DNA from: a virus
Strand: one strand, 5' to 3'
Virus record (IMG/VR): IMGVR_UViG_3300049929_000011
Span: 1-35,767 of that record
Length of the DNA: 35,767 nucleotides
Part shown: positions 4,055 through 35,181 of the stretch, piece after piece
Numbering within the stretch: the first letter of the stretch is position 1
Layout: each line of letters opens with the position of its first letter
Position numbers and translations under genes: made by a program
The notes under the pieces: model-generated
Told to the model about the DNA's origin: nothing
Databases searched by the model: none
What the model saw: only the letters and a program-made list of their open reading frames with translations

Positions 4055-4086
4055 TGATACGATGAACAAAGGGTTTGACGCGCGCT

Positions 4087-4581
4087 GTGACGGTCGAAAT
4101 CGAGATATCTAAGAGGCTGACAACCTCGCAATATGCCTTCTGCGAACTAGTAGCATCTGGAATCGATATAAATGATGCGGCGGAGCGCGCTGGTTATAGC
4201 GTTTCGAACCCTAGCGCTGAAGCTTCGCGACTCATGCAACAGCCTGCGATTATCGCGACTGTACAAATGGGCGTTGCGCGACGCCTGGCGATCGGCTCTG
4301 GCGCGGCGTTGCGCGTGCTGCAAGAGTTCACTGTTGACGAGACGCTCGACAAGCGGCTGCGCTTCGCCTGCGCTAAGACACTTCTCGACAGAGCTGGGCA
4401 TATCGCGCCCAAGGCCATCGCAGCGAGCACAGGCGCGTCTGTGCCGCTCAACGAGATGTCAATGAGCGACCTTCGGACGCTCGCCGACAAGCTAGAAGGC
4501 GAGATAGCAGGGCGTGCTAAAGACGTTTCCAGCGCCAAGCCAGCGCCAAGCAAGGCGCAAACCATTGAAGATATTATGTAA
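4087..4581 (+). CDS. Terminase small subunit-like protein
   Basis: The protein opens with a segment typical of terminase small subunits: TTSQYAFCELVASGIDINDAAERAGYS, a helix-turn-helix, then a short 'EASRLMQQPAIIATVQ' helix where the family usually shows 'L.r.P.V...i'. The central part is helical and the C-terminus disordered with a short TIEDIM end. This subunit binds packaging sites and hands DNA to TerL. The start is uncertain: GTG 4087 is 13 nt from AAAGGG, while TTG 4075 is only 1 nt from it. Unusually, it is almost 7 kb from the large subunit. The assignment rests on pattern only. Confidence 0.6.
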   Translation: MTVEIEISKRLTTSQYAFCELVASGIDINDAAERAGYSVSNPSAEASRLMQQPAIIATVQMGVARRLAIGSGAALRVLQEFTVDETLDKRLRFACAKTLLDRAGHIAPKAIAASTGASVPLNEMSMSDLRTLADKLEGEIAGRAKDVSSAKPAPSKAQTIEDIM

Positions 4582-4585
4582 TTGG

Positions 4586-4600
4586 CGCCTAGCATAGGCG
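4586..4600 (+). other. Hairpin after the terminase small subunit gene
   Basis: CGCCTA-GCA-TAGGCG forms a 6-bp stem with a 3-nt loop starting 5 nt after the stop codon. There is no T-run, so it is not a classic terminator. The rest of the gap to 4736 is GC-rich and then has a repeated GAAAATCGA before the next gene; I see no gene in it. Confidence 0.35.
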
Positions 4601-4736
4601 ACAGCGTGACCATGACACCTGGTCGAGGCTGGCGCAGGGCAGGCAGGCACCCCGCCCCGGGCACCCGGCCGCCCGAGCCAAAGATGCCGTAGTGTGCTTC
4701 TGCTAAATTTCTGAAAATCGAAAATCGAGGTCAAAA

Positions 4737-4943
4737 ATGGACACCCAACAAATCCCACACGGCAACAACGTCGGCGCCTTCGTCAAATGGTGCTGGGACC
4801 ACTGCCGAAGCGCAGACATCGACGTCACCACCGACCATGTGTGGACCTTCAAAACGCCGCACGGCACACTCACCGCCAAAGCAGGCGACACCGTGACGTG
4901 GCACGACGGCAAACTCGTCGTTGACACGAACGTAGGAAACTGA
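4737..4943 (+). CDS. Small hypothetical protein, 68 aa
   Basis: GAGG lies about 9 nt before the ATG. The protein has an N-terminal helical part with CWDHC and a C-terminal beta-rich half (VWTFKTPHGTLTAKAGDTVTW), resembling a small beta-barrel. No family is recognised. Its stop codon TGA is the TGA inside the recurrent motif AAACTGAGAG, and the TTGACA of that motif copy encodes part of its C-terminus. Confidence 0.65.
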   Translation: MDTQQIPHGNNVGAFVKWCWDHCRSADIDVTTDHVWTFKTPHGTLTAKAGDTVTWHDGKLVVDTNVGN

Positions 4944-4949
4944 GAGATT
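4921..4949 (+). promoter_or_regulatory. Recurrent motif with -35-like box
   Basis: TTGACA (4921-4926), 17 bp, then GAGATT (4944-4949). The conserved GTAGGAAACTGAGAGATT lies in the spacer and -10 position. It overlaps the end of the upstream gene and precedes the cluster at 5065-5844. An ATG directly after it (4950) opens a frame whose first part looks non-coding. Confidence 0.65.
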
Positions 4950-5064
4950 ATGGAAGTCGCGCGGCACCGACGCGGCAGCCCGATAGCCTCCCGCCCGTTT
5001 CCCCTCCCTCCGGGCCGCAGGCATCAAGGCCAAAAAGTCTCGGGCACCTTACAAGGAACACGAC

Positions 5065-5208
5065 ATGGCAAAGCGCACTGGCATCGAGCAGAACACCGTT
5101 CAGAAGATCGTCAGCGGCGCTCGCGTTGCGTTCGATCCCCGCACTACTGCGGAAGTCATCACGTCGATCGACATGACGAATCGCAAGCCACGGAAGTCTC
5201 AGTCATGA
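5065..5208 (+). CDS. Small basic hypothetical protein, 47 aa
   Basis: AAGGAA lies 7 nt before the ATG. The protein (MAKRTGIEQNTVQKIVSGAR, then a segment ending NRKPRKSQS) has a helix-turn-helix-like start and a basic tail. The stop overlaps the next start (ATGATG), indicating coupled translation. It occupies the region where the longer frame from 4950 reads as low-complexity Arg/His-rich sequence, so this frame is preferred. Confidence 0.55.
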   Translation: MAKRTGIEQNTVQKIVSGARVAFDPRTTAEVITSIDMTNRKPRKSQS

Positions 5209-5426
5209 TGCCGATGCAAGCCCAACCTATGCACCCGCCCGCGGCTCCCGCAGGTCCGTCACCCCTGGCCGCATTGTTCGCCAGGCACGCCGCAGCTGGC
5301 GCCCCCGCCGCGCCGCATCCCGGCGGCATGGCCCCGCAGGCACCCGGCGCCCCGATGCCACTCAACGCTGGCGGTCACGCTGCAGGTCGTTTCGGTCATG
5401 CTCCGTCCGTCCTCCCTGGCTGTTGA
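5205..5426 (+). CDS. Ala/Pro/His-rich small protein, 73 aa
   Basis: Starts MMPMQAQPMHPP at the overlap with the previous stop. It is almost entirely low-complexity Ala, Pro, Gly and His, with a short helix (LAALFARHAAAG). No domain is recognised. The 3' end overlaps the next gene by 29 nt. Composition alone could arise from GC-rich DNA, but the coupled start and neighbouring gene spacing support expression. Confidence 0.5.
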   Translation: MMPMQAQPMHPPAAPAGPSPLAALFARHAAAGAPAAPHPGGMAPQAPGAPMPLNAGGHAAGRFGHAPSVLPGC

Positions 5427-5562
5427 TTTGCTCAACCACCTAATCGGTCCCGATTTTGTCCTGATGTGGCAGCGGGCCGGATGGTTTCTGCTCACTTTCG
5501 CCGTTGTCGTGACGGTGCTCGCGATCGCGGCGCATTGCGATTCCAATTACCCGCGGAAATAA
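5398..5562 (+). CDS. Small membrane protein, 54 aa
   Basis: MLRPSSLAVDLLNHLIG is followed by one clear membrane span (about residues 28-46, GWFLLTFAVVVTVLAIAA) and a short polar tail (CDSNYPRK). It overlaps the preceding frame by 29 nt. Single-span phage proteins may act as holin-like or superinfection-exclusion factors; no specific function is supported. Confidence 0.55.
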   Translation: MLRPSSLAVDLLNHLIGPDFVLMWQRAGWFLLTFAVVVTVLAIAAHCDSNYPRK

Positions 5563-5631
5563 GCCCCCGTGGCCGCCACCCCCTGGCGCACACAGCGTCT
5601 TCTCGCCCTTCAGACCGCAAGGACTCAATTA

Positions 5632-5844
5632 ATGGCAATTGCTGACGACCTCAAAGCTGCCCTCGCCACCGTTTCCGCCCAGATCGACGCCGAACTGGCT
5701 TCGCACCTGGTCGCATCGTCCACCGTGACCGCTGCGAAGGACGCCAACGAGGCCGCGCTCGTCGAGGCGCTTGATCTCGTCAACAAGTTGTCGGCGAAAC
5801 TGCCTCCGCTCCCTGTGGTCGCGGATCCCGCGCCGGCCGCGTAA
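5632..5844 (+). CDS. Small coiled-coil protein, 70 aa
   Basis: AAGGA lies 7 nt before the ATG, favouring this start over a GTG at 5569. The product is one long Ala-rich amphipathic helix (DDLKAALATVSAQIDAEL, then EAALVEALDLVNKLSAKL) with a Pro/Ala tail. It resembles short coiled-coil phage proteins found near fibre genes. Specific function unknown. Confidence 0.65.
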   Translation: MAIADDLKAALATVSAQIDAELASHLVASSTVTAAKDANEAALVEALDLVNKLSAKLPPLPVVADPAPAA

Positions 5845-5877
5845 GAGTTTCTGACTGCAGCGTGGAAGGACACGCGG

Positions 5878-5894
5878 CGAAAGCTGAGAGATTG
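5878..5894 (+). promoter_or_regulatory. Degenerate copy of the recurrent motif
   Basis: CGAAAAGCTGAGAGATT keeps TGAGAGATT but not GGAAAC, and no TTG hexamer lies 17 bp upstream. A 7-bp hairpin follows 14 nt later, as after two stronger copies. Confidence 0.35.
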
Positions 5895-5908
5895 CGAAAA
5901 ATCTGATC

Positions 5909-5930
5909 TATTGCGCTGCAGAGCAATAGG
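5909..5930 (+). other. Leader hairpin
   Basis: CTATTGC (5909-5915) pairs with GCAATAG (5924-5930) around an 8-nt loop. It sits in the 204-bp gap before the first fibre gene, which holds no gene I can support. A smaller CCCG-GAAAA-CGGG hairpin follows near 5937-5950. Confidence 0.4.
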
Positions 5931-6012
5931 TACGACCCCGGAAAACGGGCCATTCATCCAGACTAGTCCCATTGCAATGGAGTCGGTGTCGAGCCCGACC
6001 AGTCAGAATTTC

Positions 6013-6041
6013 TTGTCTCGTGTCGTGAACTGAGATATTCT
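6013..6041 (+). promoter_or_regulatory. Recurrent motif, TATTCT variant
   Basis: TTGTCT (6013-6018), exactly 17 bp, then TATTCT (6036-6041), with GAACTGAGA inside the spacer. Only this copy and that at 27398-27426 continue as GAGATATTCTG. It lies 7 nt before the fibre gene start at 6049. Confidence 0.65.
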
Positions 6042-6048
6042 GGTCAGC

Positions 6049-6981
6049 ATGAGCCAGCCAGTCGCCTACGTCCCCGTTCACGCCTTTGTCGCCGATTCCG
6101 CGACGGTCCCGAACTTTCCGGGCCAGGCGCTGGACGTCGAACACGCCGCGATCAAGGCGACAACCGACCAGATCCGCGCCAATCTGGCGTTGATCCAGCG
6201 CGATGACGGCGCACTGGCCAACGGCAGTGTCGACACCCCTCAACTAAGCACCGCCGTTCAGGCCGCGCTCGGCAGTTCAACCGCGATTACGACCATCCTG
6301 GCCGCAGCGACCGCCGCGTCGGCCAGTGCATCGGCAGCCGCGGCGAGTGCGACGACGGCGAACACCGACGTGGGCCTGACACACGCGGATGTCGTGCTGA
6401 CCCACGCGGATGTCACCACCACCGCGGCCAATGCCTCTGCGGCGGCCACCTCGGCCAGCAATGCGGCAGCGACCCTGGCAACGGCAGTTGTGGGTCCGGC
6501 ATCTTCGGTCGACAGTGAGGTGATGATCTACAATAGCACCACCGGCAAGCTGGCGAAGCGTGCGAGCATTTCCGGTCTTGCGAAGTTGACTTCTGGTGTT
6601 CTCAGCGCCGCGGTCGCTGGCACGGATTATCAGGCCGCCGACGCGCAATTGTTCAGCAACATCCCGCAGAACAGCAAGAGTGCCGCATACACGACGGTTC
6701 TGACCGACGGCCAAAAGCACATCTTCCATCCTTCGGCAGACACCACCGCGCGCACATGGACGATCGACAGCAACGCGAACGTGGCGTACCCGATCGGCAC
6801 CGCCATTACCTTCATCAACCAGAACGCCGGCGGTATTATCACGATTGCGATTACGACCGACACGATGCGACTGGCCGGTTCCGGCGCCACAGGCAACCGT
6901 ACGCTCGCGGCGAACGGCATGGCGACCGCGATCAAGGTGACAGCGACCGAGTGGATCATCTCCGGCACAGGTCTGACCTAA
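6049..6981 (+). CDS. Tail fibre/spike protein with shared N-terminal anchor
   Basis: 310 aa. The first ~65 residues (MSQPVAYVPVHAF, then ANLALIQRDDGALANGSV) match the N-terminus of the 519-aa fibre at 8701, marking a common virion-attachment domain. Residues ~85-150 are an Ala/Thr/Ser coiled-coil-like stalk with a doubled LTHADV. The C-terminal part (from about residue 205, KSAAYTTVLTDGQKHIF) looks like a beta-rich head domain common in phage fibres. It forms a short operon with the LamG gene (TAATG overlap). Probably binds host surface; the receptor is unknown. Confidence 0.7.
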   Translation: MSQPVAYVPVHAFVADSATVPNFPGQALDVEHAAIKATTDQIRANLALIQRDDGALANGSVDTPQLSTAVQAALGSSTAITTILAAATAASASASAAAASATTANTDVGLTHADVVLTHADVTTTAANASAAATSASNAAATLATAVVGPASSVDSEVMIYNSTTGKLAKRASISGLAKLTSGVLSAAVAGTDYQAADAQLFSNIPQNSKSAAYTTVLTDGQKHIFHPSADTTARTWTIDSNANVAYPIGTAITFINQNAGGIITIAITTDTMRLAGSGATGNRTLAANGMATAIKVTATEWIISGTGLT

Positions 6982-7697
6982 TGCCCGGCGCCTCGTTCAT
7001 GACCCTGGCTGCCGATCCCTGCGGCGGGAACGACGCTTTCACGAAGATCCTGCTCCACATGGACGGCGCCAACGCTGGCACGACGTTCACGGACAACAAC
7101 ATCGGCGGTTCAGCACACACATGGACGGCCGCCAGCGCCACCACGAGCAGCACGCAATTCAAGTTTGGCTCGACGTCGCTTAGTGACGGCGCGTCAGCGG
7201 GCGCCATTTCGACGCCGAGCAGCACGGATTTTAACTTGGGATCCGGCGATTTCACCATCGATTGCTGGTTTTGGGTCAATGCCGGAGCCGGAACCGCGCG
7301 CTTTTTGTGCGGCACAGCCGACGCTTCCGCGACAACCGCCAGTCAAACCGCATCGATCGGACTGACCACGGGCAACGTCCTTCAATTCCGCGCATCGCTC
7401 GCCGCGTCCACGAACGTGACCGGCACCACCGCATTCACGACGACCGGCTGGCACCACGTCGCCGGCGTGCGTGTCGGCAACATTCTGCGCCTATTCGTCG
7501 ACGGGGTGCAGGAGGGCGGGGACGTCGCTTTCACTGGCGCTGTCAATGCGTGCAGCACTGTATACGGCGTTGGCACCATCGGAGCGTTCGCCGGCAACGT
7601 CTGGAATGGCTTCGTGGACGAGTTCCGCTTGAGTGTCGGTATCGCGCGCTGGACCGCGGCTTTCGCCCCGCCAGCGGCGCCATACTTCTGTCCGTAA
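6981..7697 (+). CDS. LamG/concanavalin-like fibre protein
   Basis: 238 aa with the pattern of LamG-like jelly-roll domains: ILLHMDGANAGTTFTDN at the start, FKFGSTSLSDGAS, FTIDCWFWVNAG in the middle, WHHVAGVRVGNILRLFVDG and a closing VDEFRLSVGIARW. Such domains in phage proteins bind glycans on the host surface. The start overlaps the previous stop (TAATG), so it is co-translated with the fibre and probably assembles with it. Confidence 0.75.
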   Translation: MPGASFMTLAADPCGGNDAFTKILLHMDGANAGTTFTDNNIGGSAHTWTAASATTSSTQFKFGSTSLSDGASAGAISTPSSTDFNLGSGDFTIDCWFWVNAGAGTARFLCGTADASATTASQTASIGLTTGNVLQFRASLAASTNVTGTTAFTTTGWHHVAGVRVGNILRLFVDGVQEGGDVAFTGAVNACSTVYGVGTIGAFAGNVWNGFVDEFRLSVGIARWTAAFAPPAAPYFCP

Positions 7698-7703
7698 GGA
7701 GGG

Positions 7704-7808
7704 TTGCCATACGTATCCTACTGGAGCGGTCGCCTTGAGTTCTATCTTGGCTGGCGTCCCGCGAGCGGCGGTTTCGGTATCAAATTCGCACGCCGCGGGG
7801 TAGTCTGA
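7704..7808 (+). CDS. Possible 34-aa protein with TTG start
   Basis: A strong AAGGAGGG (7696-7703) follows the LamG stop, and the frame after it encodes LPYVSYWSGRLEFYLGWRP and ASGGFGIKFARRGVV, which looks protein-like. The only in-frame start is TTG immediately after the ribosome site, too close for normal initiation. An antisense frame (start 7886) covers the same bases. Uncertain. Confidence 0.3.
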   Translation: MPYVSYWSGRLEFYLGWRPASGGFGIKFARRGVV

Positions 7809-7904
7809 GCACGCCACTGGTCGCGCCGTGTACGCTCCGACCGCCATCCACCCTACGAAACCGATGATCCAGACGTTTAATCGCATTGTGCCCCCGTCGC
7901 ACGT

Positions 7905-8108
7905 CTAGCAGTCGGAATCGTCGCGCGCAAGTTGTGACGAACCTTCGTATTCGTGCAGTTCTTCCGGTGTAAGCGGCCGGATCTCGTACTCTCCGCCGAT
8001 GCAGCGGCGCATTACGGGGCCTGAAGCGGTCTCGTGCCAGTGCCAGTCCGTATTTCGGGAAACCTGAATGCGTGTCAGCAGTGATTGTAGGTACGATTGT
8101 TGTTGCAT
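7905..8108 (-). CDS. Small hypothetical protein on the minus strand, 67 aa
   Basis: AGGAAA lies about 8 nt before the ATG. The protein (MQQQSYLQSLLTRIQVSRN, then a WHWHETASG region and an acidic C-terminal LTPEELHEYEGSSQ) has no recognised domain. It runs against the surrounding late genes. The second copy of the two-hairpin element (8130-8188) precedes it, as copy A precedes the 28-aa membrane peptide. It may be separately expressed accessory cargo. Confidence 0.55.
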   Translation of the reverse strand: MQQQSYLQSLLTRIQVSRNTDWHWHETASGPVMRRCIGGEYEIRPLTPEELHEYEGSSQLARDDSDC

Positions 8109-8129
8109 GTGAAGCTTTCCTGCTCAATT

Positions 8130-8188
8130 TCGTGTCGTTGTCCATCCGGGTTGCGTGCCACGCAATAGCAACCCGCTCATAATGGGCG
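8130..8188 (-). repeat. Two-hairpin intergenic element, copy B
   Basis: Homologous to 1887-1943. GGGTTGC (8148-8154) pairs with GCAACCC (8168-8174), a longer stem than in copy A. The second hairpin around CATAATGGGC is interrupted by a mismatch. The core 8162-8173 is identical to 1915-1926. Confidence 0.55.
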
Positions 8189-8218
8189 AATATCTCGAAT
8201 CGGTTGCTTTCGCGTCCA

Positions 8219-8239
8219 TTCTGTAGGAAACTGAGGGAA
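8219..8239 (+). promoter_or_regulatory. Recurrent motif directly before a start codon
   Basis: TCTGTAGGAAACTGAGGGAA is followed at once by the ATG at 8240. There is no TTG hexamer at the 17-bp position. AGGA inside the motif lies at ribosome-site distance, so this copy may also act in translation. Confidence 0.55.
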
Positions 8240-8662
8240 ATGGAAGACGTCAACCTTGATTTGCCGCCGAAAGACCTGCCGCACTCCAACGATGTGGCGT
8301 TCAGACAGGCGCGCGCGTTCATCGCCGCAAGCGAGAGATTGGATCAGCACTTGACCGAAGCGATCGCCGAGTTAACGCCGACACCTCTCCCCACAGTTAA
8401 TCTTACGGAGGCAAAACCGCCCATGGCCACCACTCCTTCACCCGGCGGGTTCGCCGCACAGATCCGCAGCATGATGGACGCGGCTCGCGCCGGGGTCGAA
8501 CAGGCTCGCACCAATGGCCTCGCGAAAGTCGGCGACGCGGTGGGCAAGCTGAAAGAGGCCGAGGCTGCCACGGTCAAGGTGACCGACAGCATGGTCCAGA
8601 CCATGGAGGACGAGGCCGCGTCGCTTCTGTCCGAACTTGGCCAAATTTCGAATGACCTCTGA
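8240..8662 (+). CDS. Helical hypothetical protein, 140 aa
   Basis: The start MEDVNLDLPPKDL follows the motif. A second good start (MATTPSPGGF, 8423) has GGAGG 11 nt upstream and would give a 79-aa helical protein (QIRSMMDAARAGVEQA, VTDSMVQTMEDEAASLLSELG). The N-terminal part is also helical (ASERLDQHLTEAIAEL). Two products from one frame are possible. It precedes the collar fibre gene and may be a fibre accessory or assembly protein; that is inference from position. Confidence 0.6.
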   Translation: MEDVNLDLPPKDLPHSNDVAFRQARAFIAASERLDQHLTEAIAELTPTPLPTVNLTEAKPPMATTPSPGGFAAQIRSMMDAARAGVEQARTNGLAKVGDAVGKLKEAEAATVKVTDSMVQTMEDEAASLLSELGQISNDL

Positions 8663-8680
8663 CGTTTGCTATTCGTCGCC

Positions 8681-8700
8681 GTTTGTAGGAAACTGAGAGA
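8681..8700 (+). promoter_or_regulatory. Recurrent motif directly before a start codon
   Basis: GTTTGTAGGAAACTGAGAGA ends at the base before ATG 8701. That ATG is fixed by homology of MSQP with the 6049 gene. A conventional promoter with its -10 here would start RNA inside the gene, so the motif must start transcription within itself or act on the RNA. Confidence 0.6.
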
Positions 8701-10260
8701 ATGTCGCAGCCTCCCGCGTTTTCGCGCGCCTTCAGTTTCACCAACTTTCAGGCCAGCAACCCGTCGTTGTCGCTGCCGGGATCGCAGGTCGACCTCGAGC
8801 TGAACAACGCCAAGGCGACGCTCGATGCCACCCTGGCCAATCTCGCGCTGATCCAGCGCGATGACGGCGCCGTCAAAAACGCCACCATTGGTTACGACCA
8901 GCTCAAGACCGAAGTTGTTCTCGGCTTCAACGCGCCGAGCGTTTGGGTCACCGGGACCGCGTACACCGCCAACAGTTCCACCGTCTTCAACGGCTCCGGC
9001 TTCTACCGCTGTCTGATCGCGCACACTTCCGGCGTGTTCGCCACCGATCTCGCCGCCCTGAAGTGGCAGTTGATCGTCAACCTGGCTGCCGTGCCTCTCG
9101 TTAGCGCGAGCCAGATCGCGGTGACGCCTTCGGGATCACTGACGACCGACGCACAGACGTCGCTGCAGGCGCTGGACACCGGCAAGGCACCGCTGTCGCA
9201 CACGCAGGTTTCCTCGACCATCTCCGACAGCACATCCGCCGGTCGCGCGCTGCTCACCGCCGCCGACGTCACCGCGCAGAACGTGCTGCTTGGCACCACG
9301 TCGCTCGGCTTCCAGTCCGGCGACGTCAAAGAGACCAGCGTGCTGGTGTTGCAGTCCGGCTGGTATTATTGCGACGGTTCCAACAAGAACCGTGTCACCG
9401 ACGTCAATCTGTTCAACGCTATCACGATCCAGCAATCCGGCGTAACGACCAGCGGCTCCGCGGTTATCACCGGATTGAGTGACACCACCAACGGCGGCAA
9501 CACCCCGATGTCGCCGGGAATGCCGGTCAGCGGCACCAACATTCCGGCGGCGACCGTCATCTTGAGCGTCGACAGTGCGACCCAGGTCACGCTTTCCGCC
9601 AACGCCACAGGTTCGGCAACTACCACCCTGGTGTTCGCGCCGTACGGCGTGGGTGACGGCTCGACCACCTTCGGTTTGCCAAATCGTTCTCGTATCGGCG
9701 TCGGCCGCGACAACGCCAGCGGCTCTGCGTCGAACATCACGCAGGTGTCGACCACGCTCACGCTCACCAGCGCCAGCGCGACGGCCACGGTGGCTTCCGC
9801 GACCGGTCTCGTTGTCGGCATGTTCATATCGCATCCGAAAGTGCCGTCCGGAACGACGCTACTGACGATTTCCGGCACCACCATTACGATGTCGAATGTC
9901 GCTTCGGGCACCGTCGCGTCGACCGGGCGTTTCTCGCCGCTGTTGGATGCGCAAACGATCGGCGCCGTCGGCGGCGCCCTGTCGCAGTTGCAGACGCTCG
10001 TCACCGCGAACCTTCCCGCCTATACGCCCGCGGGCTCGGTTTCAGTTACGTCCACATCAAATCAGGTGGTGCAGGAAACCGGCATCGTTCAGAGCGCCAC
10101 CGGTGGCGGAATTGTTTTCGCTTTCGGTGCTGCACCGACGATGTCGTCCATCGTCTCAACAGGCTCTATCGCCGGATCGGCGCAGGGAGGGACCAGCACG
10201 CCATTCAAGACGCAAACGGTGCAGCCAACGATCGTGATGAACTACATTATCAAACGGTGA
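8701..10260 (+). CDS. Tail fibre with phage tail-collar domain
   Basis: 519 aa. The N-terminal ~65 residues (LANLALIQRDDGAVKN) match the fibre at 6049. Residues ~215-330 carry a tail-collar fold signature: SGWYYCDGSNKNRVTDVNLFNAI, then YGVGDGSTTFGLPNRSRIGVGRDN. These two halves are normally adjacent, but here about 70 residues of a Thr/Ser-rich beta module (VTTSGSAVITGLSD, PAATVILSVDS) are inserted. A second similar module (TLTLTSASATATVASATG) follows. The C-terminus resembles trimeric fibre tips. Probably the receptor-binding fibre. Confidence 0.8.
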   Translation: MSQPPAFSRAFSFTNFQASNPSLSLPGSQVDLELNNAKATLDATLANLALIQRDDGAVKNATIGYDQLKTEVVLGFNAPSVWVTGTAYTANSSTVFNGSGFYRCLIAHTSGVFATDLAALKWQLIVNLAAVPLVSASQIAVTPSGSLTTDAQTSLQALDTGKAPLSHTQVSSTISDSTSAGRALLTAADVTAQNVLLGTTSLGFQSGDVKETSVLVLQSGWYYCDGSNKNRVTDVNLFNAITIQQSGVTTSGSAVITGLSDTTNGGNTPMSPGMPVSGTNIPAATVILSVDSATQVTLSANATGSATTTLVFAPYGVGDGSTTFGLPNRSRIGVGRDNASGSASNITQVSTTLTLTSASATATVASATGLVVGMFISHPKVPSGTTLLTISGTTITMSNVASGTVASTGRFSPLLDAQTIGAVGGALSQLQTLVTANLPAYTPAGSVSVTSTSNQVVQETGIVQSATGGGIVFAFGAAPTMSSIVSTGSIAGSAQGGTSTPFKTQTVQPTIVMNYIIKR

Positions 10261-10272
10261 GGGAGAACCACC

Positions 10273-11295
10273 TTGAGCGACGCGAAAACGGAAGCTGAAA
10301 ATCAGGTTGCGATTCACGGCAGCATACGGGCGGCCGCCAAGGCGACAGGTGTGTCGTATTCGACATTTAACGGACGTTTGCACGGCGCCAAGGATCGCGC
10401 TGCGCCCAAAATGTTGGAAACTGAGAGTTTGATCTTTCCGGATTTGCCGGAGAGTGAATTGCCGGCAAAGGAACTGATCGACCAGGCGTGCAAGGGCTTT
10501 GCTCGGCATCTGTCGGCCCGCAACTCGCGGCGCTGGATGGAGATCAAGGTCAAGTCGAACCAGCCAATCGGGCTGTGCTTCATGGGCGATCCGCACATCG
10601 ACAACAACGGCTGCAACTGGCCTCTCCTGCGGCGAGACATCCAGGTGCTCGAAGAGACCCCTGGCATGTTCGCGGTCAACATCGGCGATCTCACCGACAA
10701 CTGGGTCGGTCGCCTTGTCCGCCTGTATGCGGATCAAGAGATGTCGAAGAAGCAGGCGTGGAAGCTTGCGAAATACCTGATGCGCGATTCCAAGATCAAA
10801 TGGATGTGCCATCTGCTCGGCAACCATGACGCTTGGAACGATGGTCCGTATCTGATCAAGGCCAATGCGCAGCCGATGGTGCCGGTCGAGGATTGGCAGT
10901 CGCGTTTTCAGATCGTGTTCCCGAACGAGGCGCGCGTCCGCGTGCACGCCGCGCACGATTTCCCCGGTTCATCTATCTGGAACAAAATGCATGGCCCGCA
11001 GAAGGCGTCGATGATGCTCGAGCAGGCCGACATTTTCGCCTGCGGACACAAACACGAATGGGCAATCAATGAGTCAGAAAATGCCAACCGAGATTTTGTT
11101 TATCACCTTATCCGTGCGCGCGGCTACAAGTTTATCGACTCGTATTCCGACCAGCTCGGATATGGAAGTCAGAAGTTTGGGGCATCCATCACGGCCGTTA
11201 TCGACCCCACCGGCGACGGCACCAAGCGGATCAGATGCTTCCCGGATCTTCCCGAGGCTGCCGAATTTTTGACGTGGAAGCGGGGGCGGTCATGA
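10273..11295 (+). CDS. HTH-fused calcineurin-like metallophosphoesterase
   Basis: 340 aa with a complete metallophosphoesterase motif set: GDPHID (D106, H108), GDLTDNW (D139), GNHD (183-186), H228 and GHKH (258-261), so a two-metal active site is expected. Residues ~15-36 (SIRAAAKATGVSYSTFNGRL) form a helix-turn-helix. The start is TTG with GAGGGAG 6-7 nt upstream. It overlaps the next gene (ATGA) and sits directly upstream of terminase genes. Phage members may be nucleases or phosphatases linked to DNA processing; the substrate is unknown. Confidence 0.8.
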   Translation: MSDAKTEAENQVAIHGSIRAAAKATGVSYSTFNGRLHGAKDRAAPKMLETESLIFPDLPESELPAKELIDQACKGFARHLSARNSRRWMEIKVKSNQPIGLCFMGDPHIDNNGCNWPLLRRDIQVLEETPGMFAVNIGDLTDNWVGRLVRLYADQEMSKKQAWKLAKYLMRDSKIKWMCHLLGNHDAWNDGPYLIKANAQPMVPVEDWQSRFQIVFPNEARVRVHAAHDFPGSSIWNKMHGPQKASMMLEQADIFACGHKHEWAINESENANRDFVYHLIRARGYKFIDSYSDQLGYGSQKFGASITAVIDPTGDGTKRIRCFPDLPEAAEFLTWKRGRS

Positions 11296-11444
11296 GCACC
11301 GTCGTCCCGATGAAGGGCTACGAGTACGACCGCTGGGCCATGATCGTGTTCGTGAACAACCTCCTGCGTGCGGACAAAGGGCATCGTCCCTGGCCGGAAG
11401 AGGATTGCAAGCAGCTCTGGCGTGACGTGTTCGACCGCGGATGA
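11292..11444 (+). CDS. Small hypothetical protein, 50 aa
   Basis: Starts at an ATGA overlap with the phosphoesterase stop and ends in an ATGA overlap with TerL. The protein (MSTVVPMKGYEYDRWAMIV, ending CKQLWRDVFDRG) is a compact helical Trp-rich protein with no recognised family. Tight coupling on both sides suggests a packaging-related job. Confidence 0.65.
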   Translation: MSTVVPMKGYEYDRWAMIVFVNNLLRADKGHRPWPEEDCKQLWRDVFDRG

Positions 11445-13084
11445 AAAAGCCCGTCGCCATCGATCCGAGAATTCATCAGCTCAAGGCCGTCAATCGTTTG
11501 ATCGCCGCGCAGGAAGCGCGCGACCACCTGCTGCCGTTCATGCTGCTGACGATGCCGGACCCTGTCGACGTCGAGGACGCCAAGCTCTCGCGCTACGAGA
11601 TCACGCCGCAGGCGCGATTGCTGACCGAGATCATGGAGAAGGTCGAGAAAGGCACGCTGAAGCGCGTCTGTGTCTCGATCGGCCCGCAGCTCGGCAAAAG
11701 CCAGATCCTGTCACGCGGCGCACCGGCGTGGATCGCTGGCCGCAATCCGTACCGCAACATGATCCTCGGCAGCTACAACCAGGATTTTGCCAACGAGTTC
11801 GGTTTTGAGGTCCGCAACATCATCAGCGCGCCGGCCTACAAGCAGGTGTTTCCGGCGTTCGAACTAATGAAGGGCGGCACCGCCAAGGATCTATTGGTGT
11901 CGAAAGAGGGCGGCAAACTCGCCTTCGTCGGCGTCGGCGGTTCCGGCACCGGTAAGCCCGCCGACCTCTGTGTGGTCGACGATCCCTTCCGCAACGACGA
12001 GGATGCCAACAGCGCGACCTATCGCGAGAAGGTCTGGAAGTGGTTCAACTCGACCATCGTGTCGCGCGCCACGGACGCCACCGCGATCGTGGTCGTTCAC
12101 ACCCGCTGGCACCAGGACGATTTGATTGGCCGGCTGTGCGACCCGTCGCACCCGGAACGCGACGGTATCTATAAGGGGATCGCGAAGCGATGGGAATACA
12201 TCAACATCCCGGCGGTGGTCGAAGACGAAGCCTTGGCGAAAGCGCTCGGGCTGAACTTGCAGAAGGCGACGGACCCCAACATTTTGGAGCAATTTGGGCA
12301 CGCGCCTATCTCCGCGTTATGGCCTGGCAGGAAGTCGCTGCCGCTGCTGGCCGAAGCCAAGCAGTCCGATCCGCGTACTTTCAATGCGCTGTACATGGGC
12401 CGTCCGGCGCCGGAGCAGGGCGAGTATTTCAAGAACGACTACATCCTCGAGTACGACCGCAAGGACTTACCGAAGAGGTTGCGGATGTACGGCGCTTCGG
12501 ACCACGCCGTTTCGAAAAAGCAGCGCCGCGACTACACCTGCCTCGGCTGCATCGGCATCGATGAGAATGATGAAATCTGGGTGATGCCGGACATCGTCTG
12601 GCGCCGGATGGAAACCGACAAGACGGTCGAGGAACTGCTTGGCCAGTTCAAGATTCACAAGCCGGCGTTGTGGTGGCTCGAGAACGAGATGATCTCGAAA
12701 TCGTTCGGGCCGTTTCTGCGCAAGCGGATGATCGAAGACAAGATTTACACCACGCTCGACCCCATCACGCCGGCGTCGGACCTCGAGACCCGCGGGCGCT
12801 CGATCCAGGGCCGCATGGCGATGCAGATGGTGCATTTCCCGAAGTTCGCGCCGTGGTGGCAGAACGCGCGCACTCAGATTCTGACATTTCCTTACGCCAC
12901 CAACGACGACTTTGTGTCGTGGCTGGCGCTGATCGGGCTCGGGCTCACCAAAGAGCTGAAGCCGTCGACAGGCAAGCAGAAGAAAGAAACCGAGCCGGCG
13001 ACCGGGTCCATCCAGTGGATCCTGCAGCGGGCCGACGAGACAATGCGAAAATCCAAGCGCGATAGCGCGACAGCCGGATGGTGA
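11441..13084 (+). CDS. terL: Terminase large subunit
   Basis: 547 aa. The ATPase half has a Walker A (GPQLGKS, 81-87), a Walker B (LCVVDDPF, 176-183) and a coupling motif (VVVHTRWHQDD, from 217). The nuclease half starts near residue 350 with the RNase H-like strand YGASDHA (D354) and contains WLENEM (E414). The VHTRWHQDD signature resembles terminases of the psiM2 ORF9-like (TIGR01630) group. It powers DNA packaging into the prohead through the portal and cuts concatemers. Start overlaps the upstream stop (ATGA). Confidence 0.93.
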   Translation: MKKPVAIDPRIHQLKAVNRLIAAQEARDHLLPFMLLTMPDPVDVEDAKLSRYEITPQARLLTEIMEKVEKGTLKRVCVSIGPQLGKSQILSRGAPAWIAGRNPYRNMILGSYNQDFANEFGFEVRNIISAPAYKQVFPAFELMKGGTAKDLLVSKEGGKLAFVGVGGSGTGKPADLCVVDDPFRNDEDANSATYREKVWKWFNSTIVSRATDATAIVVVHTRWHQDDLIGRLCDPSHPERDGIYKGIAKRWEYINIPAVVEDEALAKALGLNLQKATDPNILEQFGHAPISALWPGRKSLPLLAEAKQSDPRTFNALYMGRPAPEQGEYFKNDYILEYDRKDLPKRLRMYGASDHAVSKKQRRDYTCLGCIGIDENDEIWVMPDIVWRRMETDKTVEELLGQFKIHKPALWWLENEMISKSFGPFLRKRMIEDKIYTTLDPITPASDLETRGRSIQGRMAMQMVHFPKFAPWWQNARTQILTFPYATNDDFVSWLALIGLGLTKELKPSTGKQKKETEPATGSIQWILQRADETMRKSKRDSATAGW

Positions 13085-13086
13085 TC

Positions 13087-13233
13087 ATGGACAACGAGTA
13101 CGTCACGGTCCTGAAGTTGAGCCCTGAAGAGTGGGCGAAGTTCATCGACACACTCAATGATCCCCCGGAGCCGACGCAGGCGCTCAAGGATTTGATGCAA
13201 CATAATCCGATTTTTTGGGACTATCAGACATGA
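13087..13233 (+). CDS. 48-aa protein resembling the DUF1778 antitoxin C-terminal tail
   Basis: The whole protein is a short strand plus LSPEEWAKFIDTLNDPPEPT and QALKDLMQHNPIFWDYQ. This matches the toxin-neutralising C-terminal region of DUF1778 (TacA-type) antitoxins, whose usual pattern is 'lS.e.w..F...L..PpePn.aL..Lm'. The N-terminal ribbon-helix-helix DNA-binding part of the family is absent, and no toxin gene is adjacent. It lies between terL and portal, coupled to the portal by ATGA. It could be a decoy antitoxin; family similarity is by eye and the role is inferred. Confidence 0.65.
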   Translation: MDNEYVTVLKLSPEEWAKFIDTLNDPPEPTQALKDLMQHNPIFWDYQT

Positions 13234-15383
13234 CCGACGATCCAATGAACCTTGATCCCGCCGCACCGGTGGACGCCACTTCGACCTCCGAGCCGGAGAA
13301 GCGCGATGTGCCCGAAGCCGAGAAGAAATTCGTCAAGCAGTGGTGCTCGCGGATCAAGGCCGCCAAGGAGCACCACAAAAAGACGTTCAAGCGCATGTCC
13401 TACTGCGCCAAGATCGCGAAGCATGGCGCCGACGACGCATGGTTGGAGGGCGACAAGAAGTATGTCGTGCCAGTCATCAACCGGCTTATCAACCAATCGG
13501 TTTCGCAGCTTTACGCCAAGAACCCGAAAGCACTAGCCAAGCGCTCGCAACGCCGCATGTTCACGGTATGGGACGGCACACTGGCCTCGCTGAAGGAAGC
13601 GACCGACGCGATCCACATGGCTTCGCAAACGCCGATGTTGGACCCGATGACCGGTCAAGCCGTGCCGACGCCGCCAGATCCCAACATGCTCGCGATCTTC
13701 CAGGATGCGCAGAACGTCAAGGCGTACGACACCATGGTGGACGGCATCGCCGACACCCTGACGATCCTGCACAACCATTTCATGAAGGATCCGAGCGCGC
13801 AGTACAAGCAGCAACTAAAAGCGCTGGTTCGGCGCACCAAGGTGCGTTCCGTGGCCTACGTCAAGCTCGGCTTCCAGCGCATTCTGGAGAAGAACCCGGA
13901 CATCACCACCCAGCTCGACATCGCGACCGAGCAGCACGCCACGCTGCGCGCGCTGATGGAGGACGCCAGCCGCGACAGGTTGGACGAGGATTCCGCCAAG
14001 GCGGAACAGCTGCGTACGCTGATCGAGGATCTGCAGGCGCAGACGACGATGATCGTGAAGGAAGGGCCAGTGTTGTCGTTCCCGAAATCGCAAGCGATCA
14101 TCATCGATCCTGCCTGCGTGCACTTGAAGACCCTGGCCGGAGCCGGCTGGGTCGCCGAAGAGTACGAAAAGACGCCCGACGAGGCGCAAAAAGACTGGGA
14201 TATCGACATCACCGGCAATTACACCGAACAAAAGCCCAACGAGACGTCATCGTGGAGCCGCTGGTCCGAGAAGGACGGCAAGTTGGACAAATCTGCCACC
14301 GCGCTCGTGTGGCGAGTGATGAACAGGGACACCGGCCAGGAGTTCGTGGTCTGTGACGGGCACGATGGCTATCTGCAGCCGCCGGCCCCGCCGAAGGTGA
14401 AGATCCGACGCTTTTTCGACATCTTCCCGCTGATCTTCAACGAAGCCGAGCCGGACGATGATGACGGGGACATCTATCCGTTGTCGGACGTGTGGCAGAC
14501 CCGACATCTGCAGAACGAGTACAACCGCACCCGCGAAGGTCTGCGGGAGCACCGTTTATCGAATCGGCCGGGATACGTTGCAGGCACGGGGTCGTTCGAA
14601 AAAACCGACCTGATGAAGCTGGCCAACCACGATTTCGCCGAAATCATCGAATTGCAGCAACTGGCGCAGGGTGAAAAAATCGCAGACAAGCTGCAGGCCA
14701 AGCCAGTGATGGCGATCGACCCCAAAATGTACGAGGTCGAATCCATCTTCCAGGACATTCTGCGCGTCACCGGTTCGCAGGAAGCGAACCTTGGACCCAC
14801 CGCGGGCAAGACCGCGACGGAAAGTTCGATCGCCGAACAGGCGCATTCGACGTCGGCATCCGACAGCATAGACGACATCGACGACATGTTGACGTGTCTG
14901 GCGCAAGCCACTGGCGAACTGATGCTGCAGGAGATGTCGAAGGACACCGTGGTCGCGATCGTCGGGCCGGGTGCCGTATGGCCGGAAGCCGTCGAGACCC
15001 GCGAAGACATCATCGAGGAAATCAGCTTGGAGACTAAAGCCGGTTCCAGCGGCCGGCCGAACGCCGCCGCTGATCTCGCCAAGATGGAGCGCGCGATGCC
15101 GTTCGTGTTGCAGCTCCCTGGCATCAACCCGGTGCCGTGGGGCCAGCGCTACCTCGACACCCTCGACGTCGATGTCGAAAACGCCATTGTCGAAGGTCTG
15201 CCGTCGATCACCGCCACTAACGCGATTGCGGGCCGTCCCGCTGCCACACAGCCGGGCACCGGTGATCCCGCCAGCGATCCGGGGGCGCAGGGTGCTCAAG
15301 GAGCGCAGAACGCTCCACAGCCCGCGCAGACCGCCCCCGGACCCCAACCTGGCTTCCCGGCGCCGACGATGCGACCTGCTTGA
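13230..15383 (+). CDS. Portal protein
   Basis: 717 aa, the size of P22-type podovirus portals. The start ATG overlaps the preceding stop (ATGA), preferred to a TTG 15 nt earlier. Portal-like features are the N-terminal helical region (VVPVINRLINQSVSQLYAKNP), a long helical middle with coiled coil (QLDIATEQHATLRALMEDAS), the region PLSDVWQTRHLQNEYNRTRE, and a Pro/Gln/Ala-rich disordered C-terminus. It forms the dodecameric DNA gate at one capsid vertex and docks TerL. The stop codon lies within the TTG box of the next motif. Confidence 0.88.
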   Translation: MTDDPMNLDPAAPVDATSTSEPEKRDVPEAEKKFVKQWCSRIKAAKEHHKKTFKRMSYCAKIAKHGADDAWLEGDKKYVVPVINRLINQSVSQLYAKNPKALAKRSQRRMFTVWDGTLASLKEATDAIHMASQTPMLDPMTGQAVPTPPDPNMLAIFQDAQNVKAYDTMVDGIADTLTILHNHFMKDPSAQYKQQLKALVRRTKVRSVAYVKLGFQRILEKNPDITTQLDIATEQHATLRALMEDASRDRLDEDSAKAEQLRTLIEDLQAQTTMIVKEGPVLSFPKSQAIIIDPACVHLKTLAGAGWVAEEYEKTPDEAQKDWDIDITGNYTEQKPNETSSWSRWSEKDGKLDKSATALVWRVMNRDTGQEFVVCDGHDGYLQPPAPPKVKIRRFFDIFPLIFNEAEPDDDDGDIYPLSDVWQTRHLQNEYNRTREGLREHRLSNRPGYVAGTGSFEKTDLMKLANHDFAEIIELQQLAQGEKIADKLQAKPVMAIDPKMYEVESIFQDILRVTGSQEANLGPTAGKTATESSIAEQAHSTSASDSIDDIDDMLTCLAQATGELMLQEMSKDTVVAIVGPGAVWPEAVETREDIIEEISLETKAGSSGRPNAAADLAKMERAMPFVLQLPGINPVPWGQRYLDTLDVDVENAIVEGLPSITATNAIAGRPAATQPGTGDPASDPGAQGAQGAQNAPQPAQTAPGPQPGFPAPTMRPA

Positions 15384-26923: not shown

Positions 26924-27418
26924 GTGATCAAGGTCGCGACGCTGCAAGACGTCACCGCCATCGCCCGCAACATGCGCGCACACGACCGCGCCGAGCGACT
27001 GGCGCTGTCCCACGGCAGTGATCCGGTGGCGGCAGCGGTGGCGTTTTTGGACATGAACCACATGGCCGTAACCGTGTGGCGGGGCGAAGCCCCTGTCGCC
27101 GTCATCGGCGTGGTGTTCGCGCATCCCGGCGTCGCCTCTACTATCTTCTTTGCCACCGACGAGTTCCCCAAAGTCGCGATCGCCACCACGCGGTTCGTCC
27201 GGCGCACCTTGTTTCCGATCCTGGTCGAAACCGGCATCCACCGCCTGCAGGTGTGCTCGATGCTGCACACCTACGACGATGACGAGCACGACTGGATTCT
27301 GTCCTTCGGTGCCAAACGAGAGGCCGTTCTGGTCTGTTATGGCAAAGATCTGGAGGATTTCGCGCTTTTTACCATGAGCGACACCGACATGGCGCGCGTG
27401 ACATCTGGCGGAAACTGA
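26924..27418 (+). CDS. GNAT-like (T7 gp13-position) protein
   Basis: 164 aa with a GTG start 1 nt after the preceding stop. It opens like an acetyltransferase (MIKVATLQDVTAIARNM) and continues with strands and helices of GNAT topology (AVTVWRGEAPVAVIGVVFAHPG, LFPILVETGIHRLQVCSML, DWILSFGAKREAVLVCYGKD). Many podoviruses carry such a protein between the nozzle and internal virion genes. I cannot see a clear acetyl-CoA P-loop, so it may be structural rather than catalytic. Its stop TGA lies within the recurrent motif. Confidence 0.65.
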   Translation: MIKVATLQDVTAIARNMRAHDRAERLALSHGSDPVAAAVAFLDMNHMAVTVWRGEAPVAVIGVVFAHPGVASTIFFATDEFPKVAIATTRFVRRTLFPILVETGIHRLQVCSMLHTYDDDEHDWILSFGAKREAVLVCYGKDLEDFALFTMSDTDMARVTSGGN

Positions 27419-34317: not shown

Positions 34318-34706
34318 TGTGGATGGCGATCATCTCGTTTCTTGGCGGCCCGGTCGTAAGCGGGCTGATCAAGGCGTATCAGGCTAAGCTCGCTGCCGGC
34401 AATACGTCGGAGAAGATCGCCTCGGATCTAGCGGCGGGTGAAATCGCCGCCCAACAGAACGATGTCAACGTAGCAGCGAGCATCGTCATTGCAGAGCAGG
34501 GGCGTTGGTACACGGCGTGCATCCGCCCGTTGATGGCCCTTCCGTTTATCGTGTTCACTTGGAAGGTCGTTGTCATCGACAAGGTAATGGGACTGAGCAC
34601 AACGGACCCTTTAGACCCTCATATGTGGAGCGTTTTTACCGCGGTTGTGGTGGCTTATTTCGGCGGTCGTTCGATCGAAAAAGTTGCCAGGATACTTAAG
34701 AGATAG
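34317..34706 (+). CDS. Holin, GTA three-TM type
   Basis: 129 aa. The middle carries GEIAAQQNDVNVAASIVIAE followed by RWYTACIRPLMALPFIVFTW, the typical GTA_holin_3TM pattern of an amphipathic helix then 'W.ta..RP' leading into a membrane span. Further hydrophobic spans lie at the N-terminus (WMAIISFLGGPVVSGLI) and near the C-terminus (VFTAVVVAYFGG). Such proteins permit gene transfer agent or phage release. Confidence 0.75.
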   Translation: MWMAIISFLGGPVVSGLIKAYQAKLAAGNTSEKIASDLAAGEIAAQQNDVNVAASIVIAEQGRWYTACIRPLMALPFIVFTWKVVVIDKVMGLSTTDPLDPHMWSVFTAVVVAYFGGRSIEKVARILKR

Positions 34707-34713
34707 ATGCCAG

Positions 34714-35181
34714 ATGCCTAGCAAGGAGTGGCGCAAAAAGAACCCTGAAAAACAAGAAGCTCTCGCCAAAATTGCGCGTGCGCGGAGGTGGGCGAGAATT
34801 AAAGATGATCCCGTTTTGAAAGCTAAAGCAAACGCTCGAATGCGCGAGTGGTATGCGGTGCCGGAAAATAAAGCAAAGGCACTAGCTCGTCATTCAAAGA
34901 GTTGGCGGGAGAAACCCGAAGTTAGACGGCGCAGGAGCACTCAGAACTTACTGACGCTGTATGGCATCACTCTCGAACAAAAAGAGCAGATGTTTTTGGC
35001 CCAAGATTCTAAGTGCGCGATCTGTAAGAGCGAAACTACCAAGGGCACCGGTTGGCACGTTGACCATTGTCACGAAACGAAACGTGTCCGCAGCGTCCTT
35101 TGCAGTTCCTGCAATTTGATGATCGGCCACGCTAAAGAGAACTCCCAAACCCTTTTATCCGCCGTGGAATACCTCAGATGA
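34714..35181 (+). CDS. Endonuclease VII-like HNH endonuclease
   Basis: 155 aa. The C-terminal part (CAICKSETTKG, WHVDHCHETKRVRSVLCSSCN, LMIGHAKEN) is the recombination endonuclease VII/HNH signature: two CxxC-type zinc knuckles around a VDH active site. The N-terminal half is Lys/Arg-rich and helical. The DNA is clearly less GC-rich than its neighbours, and the gene interrupts the lysis cassette, which suggests a mobile, homing-type insertion; a resolvase role is the alternative. An upstream frame extension overlapping the holin gene is not needed. Confidence 0.82.
   Translation: MPSKEWRKKNPEKQEALAKIARARRWARIKDDPVLKAKANARMREWYAVPENKAKALARHSKSWREKPEVRRRRSTQNLLTLYGITLEQKEQMFLAQDSKCAICKSETTKGTGWHVDHCHETKRVRSVLCSSCNLMIGHAKENSQTLLSAVEYLR

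Follow-up and report, generated by a model that had tools for sequence, protein, structure and literature searches.

The window analysed here, 35,767 nt of an IMG/VR virus record, carries a small gene between the genes for the terminase large subunit (terL) and the portal-position protein. Its 48-aa product, MDNEYVTVLKLSPEEWAKFIDTLNDPPEPTQALKDLMQHNPIFWDYQT, is encoded on the + strand at 13087-13233 as a stand-alone frame, in a viral record that also holds terL and a major head protein. The features that matter for this analysis are the following.

11441 to 13084, + strand: terminase large subunit, upstream neighbour of the tail gene (PF03237, E 2.2e-13; phrog_38, E 6.5e-86)
13076 to 13081, + strand: GGATGG, Shine-Dalgarno-like, 5 nt before the ATG at 13087 (sequence comparison)
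13085 to 13229, + strand: 145 nt separating the terL stop and the portal ATG (4 nt in L001, L002, L003 and L020, the relatives closest to the window phage)
13087 to 13233, + strand: stand-alone DUF1778/TacA toxin-binding tail, 48 aa (PF08681 match, search of the record, codon-position GC)
13217 to 13220, + strand: GGGA, Shine-Dalgarno-like, within the inserted gene and 9 nt before the ATG at 13230 (sequence)
13230 to 15383, + strand: portal-position protein, downstream neighbour of the tail gene (place after terL, conserved with terL in relatives)
26924 to 27418, + strand: virion-type protein with a GNAT fold (phrog_308 "internal virion protein", E 3.2e-9; AF2; PDB fold matches)

The gene is fitted closely between its neighbours. 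Its ATG lies 2 nt past the terL stop codon (13082-13084), and its own stop codon, TGA at 13231-13233, overlaps the portal-position ATG at 13230 as ATGA. An alternative in-frame ATG at 13078 overlaps the end of terL and would add 3 aa, giving a product of 51 aa. The GGATGG bases that precede the tail gene stand in front of the portal ATG instead in L001 and L002. GC by codon position is 0.52/0.29/0.73 in the 48-aa frame; terL, at 0.57/0.42/0.83, ranks the three positions in the same order, and so does the portal-position gene, at 0.62/0.43/0.80. On this pattern the frame is plausibly coding. No promoter- or terminator-like sites were found around the gene, and the protein at 13230-15383 matched no portal model in Pfam or PHROG at the thresholds applied. 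Elsewhere in the window, a likely terminase small subunit is encoded at 4075-4578, about 7 kb from terL; the stretch from there to terL (4075-11295) contains fibre-like genes and a metallophosphatase/exonuclease-like gene. A recombination endonuclease VII-type protein (PF02945, E 2.8e-22) lies near the right end of the record, at 34645-35181.

A preliminary description of this DNA had likened the 48-aa protein to the toxin-binding region of DUF1778 antitoxins, and profile searches bear this out. In Pfam-A the protein has a single match, PF08681 (TacA1, DUF1778), with an E-value of 3.4e-7 and a score of 30.6 bits against a curated cut-off of 21 bits. The alignment pairs residues 7-39 of the protein with positions 45-78 of the 80-position profile, that is, with its C-terminal half only; genuine bacterial DUF1778 antitoxins run in parallel aligned over about positions 1-79 and scored 63-97 bits. 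When PF08681 was searched against the record itself, the tail scored 29.3 bits and no second match was present within the 35.8 kb. The DNA-binding domain that the same description had reported missing is indeed absent: the protein contains no ribbon-helix-helix half, the open frame extends upstream by a few codons only, and PF08681 matches nothing else in the record. The segment that is shared with TacA, AtaR and KacA is the C-terminal toxin-wrapping one (profile positions 45-78, pattern W/F...L..PPxP..AL..LM). Unlike those antitoxins, the window protein has no ribbon-helix-helix and no paired toxin gene, and it is located in a phage packaging operon. NCBIfam returned no match for it, nor did the PADLOC models at E-values up to 1. 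With neither a DNA-binding half nor a paired toxin, this protein would be wrongly labelled as a TacA antitoxin, although it may still act in an antitoxin-like way.

Comparison with the PDB points in the same direction. A phmmer search with the 48-aa query placed DUF1778/TacA-type antitoxins as the top four chains, at weak E-values (0.03-0.41), and a profile built from twelve tails, that of the window included, ranked eleven antitoxin-type chains above any other protein. The PDB holds several antitoxin chains that consist of the DUF1778 tail alone, namely 6gtq_C (46 aa), 7ak8_G (39 aa, "TacA1 antitoxin peptide"), 7ak9_C (36 aa) and 9ilr_B (42 aa), which fits the tail being a self-sufficient binding unit. 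A single-sequence AF2 model of the tail has a helix at residues 13-24, a PPEP turn and helices at 31-39 and 41-47, with a mean pLDDT of 76. When this model was searched with Foldseek against 350,542 PDB chains (E up to 10), the only two matches were both AtaR chains, and weak ones (E 2.8 and 4.9). VIA-align found nothing that reached a Z of 2 with the tail model, so that the fold by itself is weak evidence.

The preliminary description had also called the placement in the packaging operon unusual, and a comparison with 24 terL relatives from IMG/VR, many of them fragmentary records, agrees. In 22 of the 24 the portal ATG lies between -7 and +4 nt from the end of terL, and the joint is empty in the four closest relatives, whose terL is 88-89% identical to that of the window. 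No PF08681 match was found in the 24 records, many of which are fragments. Given the 4 nt at the joint in the closest relatives and this absence of PF08681, the tail gene looks like a recent insertion into the packaging operon, and its clean fit between terL and portal together with its absence from the relatives indicates an added accessory gene. One relative, L017, has a gap of 344 at the joint, which appears to be a portal frameshift in the record rather than an insert. In another, L009 (IMGVR_UViG_3300009146_000063), the interval between the terL stop at 6614 and the portal ATG at 6777 holds a different 56-aa ORF (MKIRTGGGGVDKNGKPYKLPEKTVEAPDD...), which matched nothing in Pfam or PHROG. 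From the tail and this unrelated ORF, the joint accepts small accessory genes. The present copy of the tail is confined to one phage.

Tail-only proteins of this kind occur in other phages. For example, BcepSaruman_199 of a Burkholderia jumbo phage is a 48-aa, tail-only protein that matches PF08681 above the cut-off (E 1e-6), and BcepSauron_198 is its homologue. A 194-kb IMG/VR viral contig (L065) has a 55-aa tail-only ORF (E 2.9e-8), and Bradyrhizobium phage BDU-MI-1 encodes an 85-aa protein in which the tail is N-terminal (E 5.6e-5). With tblastn the window protein touched 171 phage records, nearly all of these and the T4-like and Klebsiella phage types considered below, at weak E-values; a search of viral contigs for loci related to the 48-aa protein found none. 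Written as a tight degenerate DNA pattern, the motif had 3 bacterial and 0 viral matches, and the bacterial ones read as antitoxin genes with a GNAT frame after them. Of the 26 viral matches to a looser pattern, that in L065 was the sole convincing tail by HMM and the remainder were chance-like. The BcepSaruman and BcepSauron tails differ with dN 0.065 and dS 0.216 (13 changes, low power), and for the tail segment of seven Straboviridae dN was below dS in nearly every informative pair. A DUF1778-like tail segment also seems to be present in several PHROGs of unknown function (7517, 26056, 38501, 10531 and 15218), with varied partners.

Where the host is known, the tails can be set against the antitoxins of its relatives. 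The BcepSaruman tail has matches in 62 plasmid records, 40 of them from Burkholderia, the host genus, although the Burkholderia matches are mostly B. glumae clones among those listed and do not amount to 40 independent cases. For the RB16 tail, the matching records come mainly from Enterobacterales and Vibrio. Plasmid matches of the window tail are scattered; a relative of its terL was sought in 398 Pseudomonadota genomes and none was found at E 1e-60. The resemblance between tails of phages with known hosts and host-relative antitoxins fits host-derived mimicry, and would also fit mere capture.

The explanation that best accounts for these observations is that the 48-aa protein is a phage antitoxin mimic, or decoy, that would cap a host GNAT tRNA-acetylating toxin; we give this reading, already proposed in the preliminary description and partly supported here, about an even chance. 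GNAT toxins acetylate aminoacyl-tRNAs and stop translation, and DUF1778 antitoxins neutralise them (PMC9177977). The mimic would retain the GNAT-wrapping part of a TacA/DUF1778 antitoxin (helix, PPxP turn, helix and aromatic C-terminus) and would have shed the DNA-binding ribbon-helix-helix. Produced together with terminase and portal during infection, the tail would bind free host toxin of the TacT, AtaT or KacT type, released when host antitoxin synthesis fails, so that acetylation of aminoacyl-tRNA would halt and translation of virion proteins would continue. AtaR neutralises AtaT by means of a disordered region at its C-terminus, which acts separately in neutralising the toxin and in placing the DNA-binding domain (review, PMC10135005). 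Because these roles are separate, a lone tail would be expected to neutralise the toxin while leaving the host toxin-antitoxin operon unrepressed. TacA-type antitoxins are often specific to their pair: three Salmonella pairs showed no cross-neutralisation, and cross-talk in Klebsiella was limited (PMC9431474). Consequently, a decoy must match a particular host toxin. The mimic is favoured indirectly by the tail-only forms in unrelated phages and the signal of purifying selection in two groups of them, by the resemblance of tails to DUF1778 antitoxins of the hosts' relatives, and by the tail-only antitoxin chains in the PDB. Against it, a late structural operon is late timing for protection from an early-acting toxin, and bacterial genomes, too, carry tail-only fragments, several of which look like products of decay.

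Those bacterial fragments bear on a second explanation, in which the gene is the captured 3' end of a host tacA, acquired by illegitimate recombination at a permissive joint, functionless, and tolerated since translation of the portal gene is undisturbed. We sampled 249 Pseudomonadota genomes, of which 59 contained PF08681; of the 93 matches, 80 were full length and 6 were tail-only, a count that was gathered at a different sensitivity from that in phages and is not comparable with it as a rate. One of the six has an internal stop and another is half of a split gene, and three of the six, when inspected, had no evident GNAT downstream. A Vibrio parahaemolyticus large replicon encodes a 65-aa tail-only protein (PF08681, E 7.3e-5). 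Stand-alone DUF1778 tails of about 65 aa, with no GNAT annotated alongside, are seen on Vibrio large replicons at 923-1120 of L033 and around 1000-1110 of L037. Capture would likewise suit a single copy that none of the 24 relatives shares, a GC content of 51% against 60-61% in the neighbouring genes, which fits recent acquisition, and a joint that, from L009, tolerates inserts. However, the frame is unbroken and has a start codon of its own, a Shine-Dalgarno-like site and coupling by ATGA; the positions that are conserved among tails (W/F, L, PP, P, L, LM and the aromatic end) are retained; and the equivalent tail-only genes of other phages have dN below dS. We regard functionless capture as unlikely.

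A third explanation holds that the tail is a short docking module for some other phage partner, with its likeness to DUF1778 due to descent or convergence and with no neutralisation of a toxin. Below the PF08681 cut-off, RB16p091 and its relatives in T4-like Pseudotevenvirus and Slopekvirus phages (phrog_7517), as well as proteins of FKP3-type Klebsiella phages, have the tail fused to parts that are not ribbon-helix-helix and that carry cysteine or zinc-ribbon-like motifs. Such fusions, and a tail segment common to several PHROG families of unknown function, are what docking would predict. However, antitoxins are the sole significant matches, the annotated plasmid matches of the Saruman tail are all DUF1778 among the matches listed, and extra domains are compatible with toxin binding. 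Docking seems to us distinctly improbable.

It is also conceivable that a toxin-binding tail serves against addiction rather than defence, guarding against a GNAT toxin that a resident plasmid or prophage encodes, once the antitoxin to it has been lost to the shut-down of host expression during infection. This shares the binding evidence of the mimic, from which sequence cannot separate it. DUF1778-GNAT pairs do occur on plasmids, and the record of Escherichia phage Cyrano holds a complete pair alongside a ParA partitioning gene. We rate an anti-addiction role as very improbable.

The preliminary description had noted that no toxin is adjacent to the tail gene, and this holds, its neighbours being terL and the portal-position gene. 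The phage does have a GNAT-fold protein of its own, encoded in the structural gene region 13.7 kb downstream (26924-27418). The model of this protein (35 sequences) has a pLDDT of 93.3, and its best PDB matches are GNAT acetyltransferases, with Z up to 15.4; no TacT/AtaT-type toxin is among the best 50 structural matches listed. It is present at 66-69% identity in close relatives that have no tail (G002, G003 and G020), and its family occurs in 72 viral contigs, so that it is unlikely to be a partner dedicated to the tail. That the tail controls this protein in the manner of an antitoxin is accordingly the least credible of the explanations, scarcely probable at all: the two share a late region and the GNAT fold is confident, but homologues persist where the tail is absent, and by eye the protein lacks the usual R/Q-x-x-G-x-G/A acetyl-CoA motif.

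Returning to the mimic, the recurrence of bare tails in phages suggests that they may be used to disarm a host toxin. A broader proposal is that unrelated phages have repeatedly stripped DUF1778 antitoxins to their toxin-binding tails, and that these proteins of 45-100 aa serve generally as a counter-defence to tRNA-acetylating GNAT toxins; the window would then contain a recently inserted case, located in a packaging operon. We put this forward tentatively, and somewhat doubt it. The nearest likenesses also differ from the window protein. BcepSaruman_199 and BcepSauron_198 are, like the window protein, 48 aa, tail-only and encoded by a small operon gene with no neighbouring GNAT annotated, but they lie among small hypothetical genes outside the packaging operon and are kin to the window protein via the profile only. 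The phrog_7517 proteins (RB16p091, Lw1_gp096 and Pseudotevenvirus relatives) share a C-terminal tail without a ribbon-helix-helix, but have a cysteine-containing N-terminal half and match Pfam slightly below the cut-off. The DUF1778 protein of Cyrano (CYRAN_27/26) is also in a phage record, but is full-length with an adjacent KacT-type toxin.

As a kind, the 48-aa gene would be a variant of phage-encoded antitoxins. Dmd of phage T4 is a phage antitoxin against RnlA and LsoA, as experiments have proven. To our knowledge, Dmd is unrelated in sequence to the 48-aa tail, and the toxin class differs. The likeness lies in the role, that of a small phage protein replacing a host antitoxin, which is proven for Dmd and proposed for the window protein. 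We found no description of phage DUF1778 tails or decoys, or of a phage counter to GNAT-DUF1778 pairs, in the open-licence literature, and the accessible part of a jumbo-phage survey does not mention DUF1778.

GNAT-DUF1778 pairs are common, as the 59 genomes with PF08681 indicate. If the mimic reading is true, recurring bare-tail proteins in phages would point indirectly to an anti-phage action of these pairs, and the tail sequence would provide a handle for spotting inhibitors of this type in phage genes whose function is unknown.
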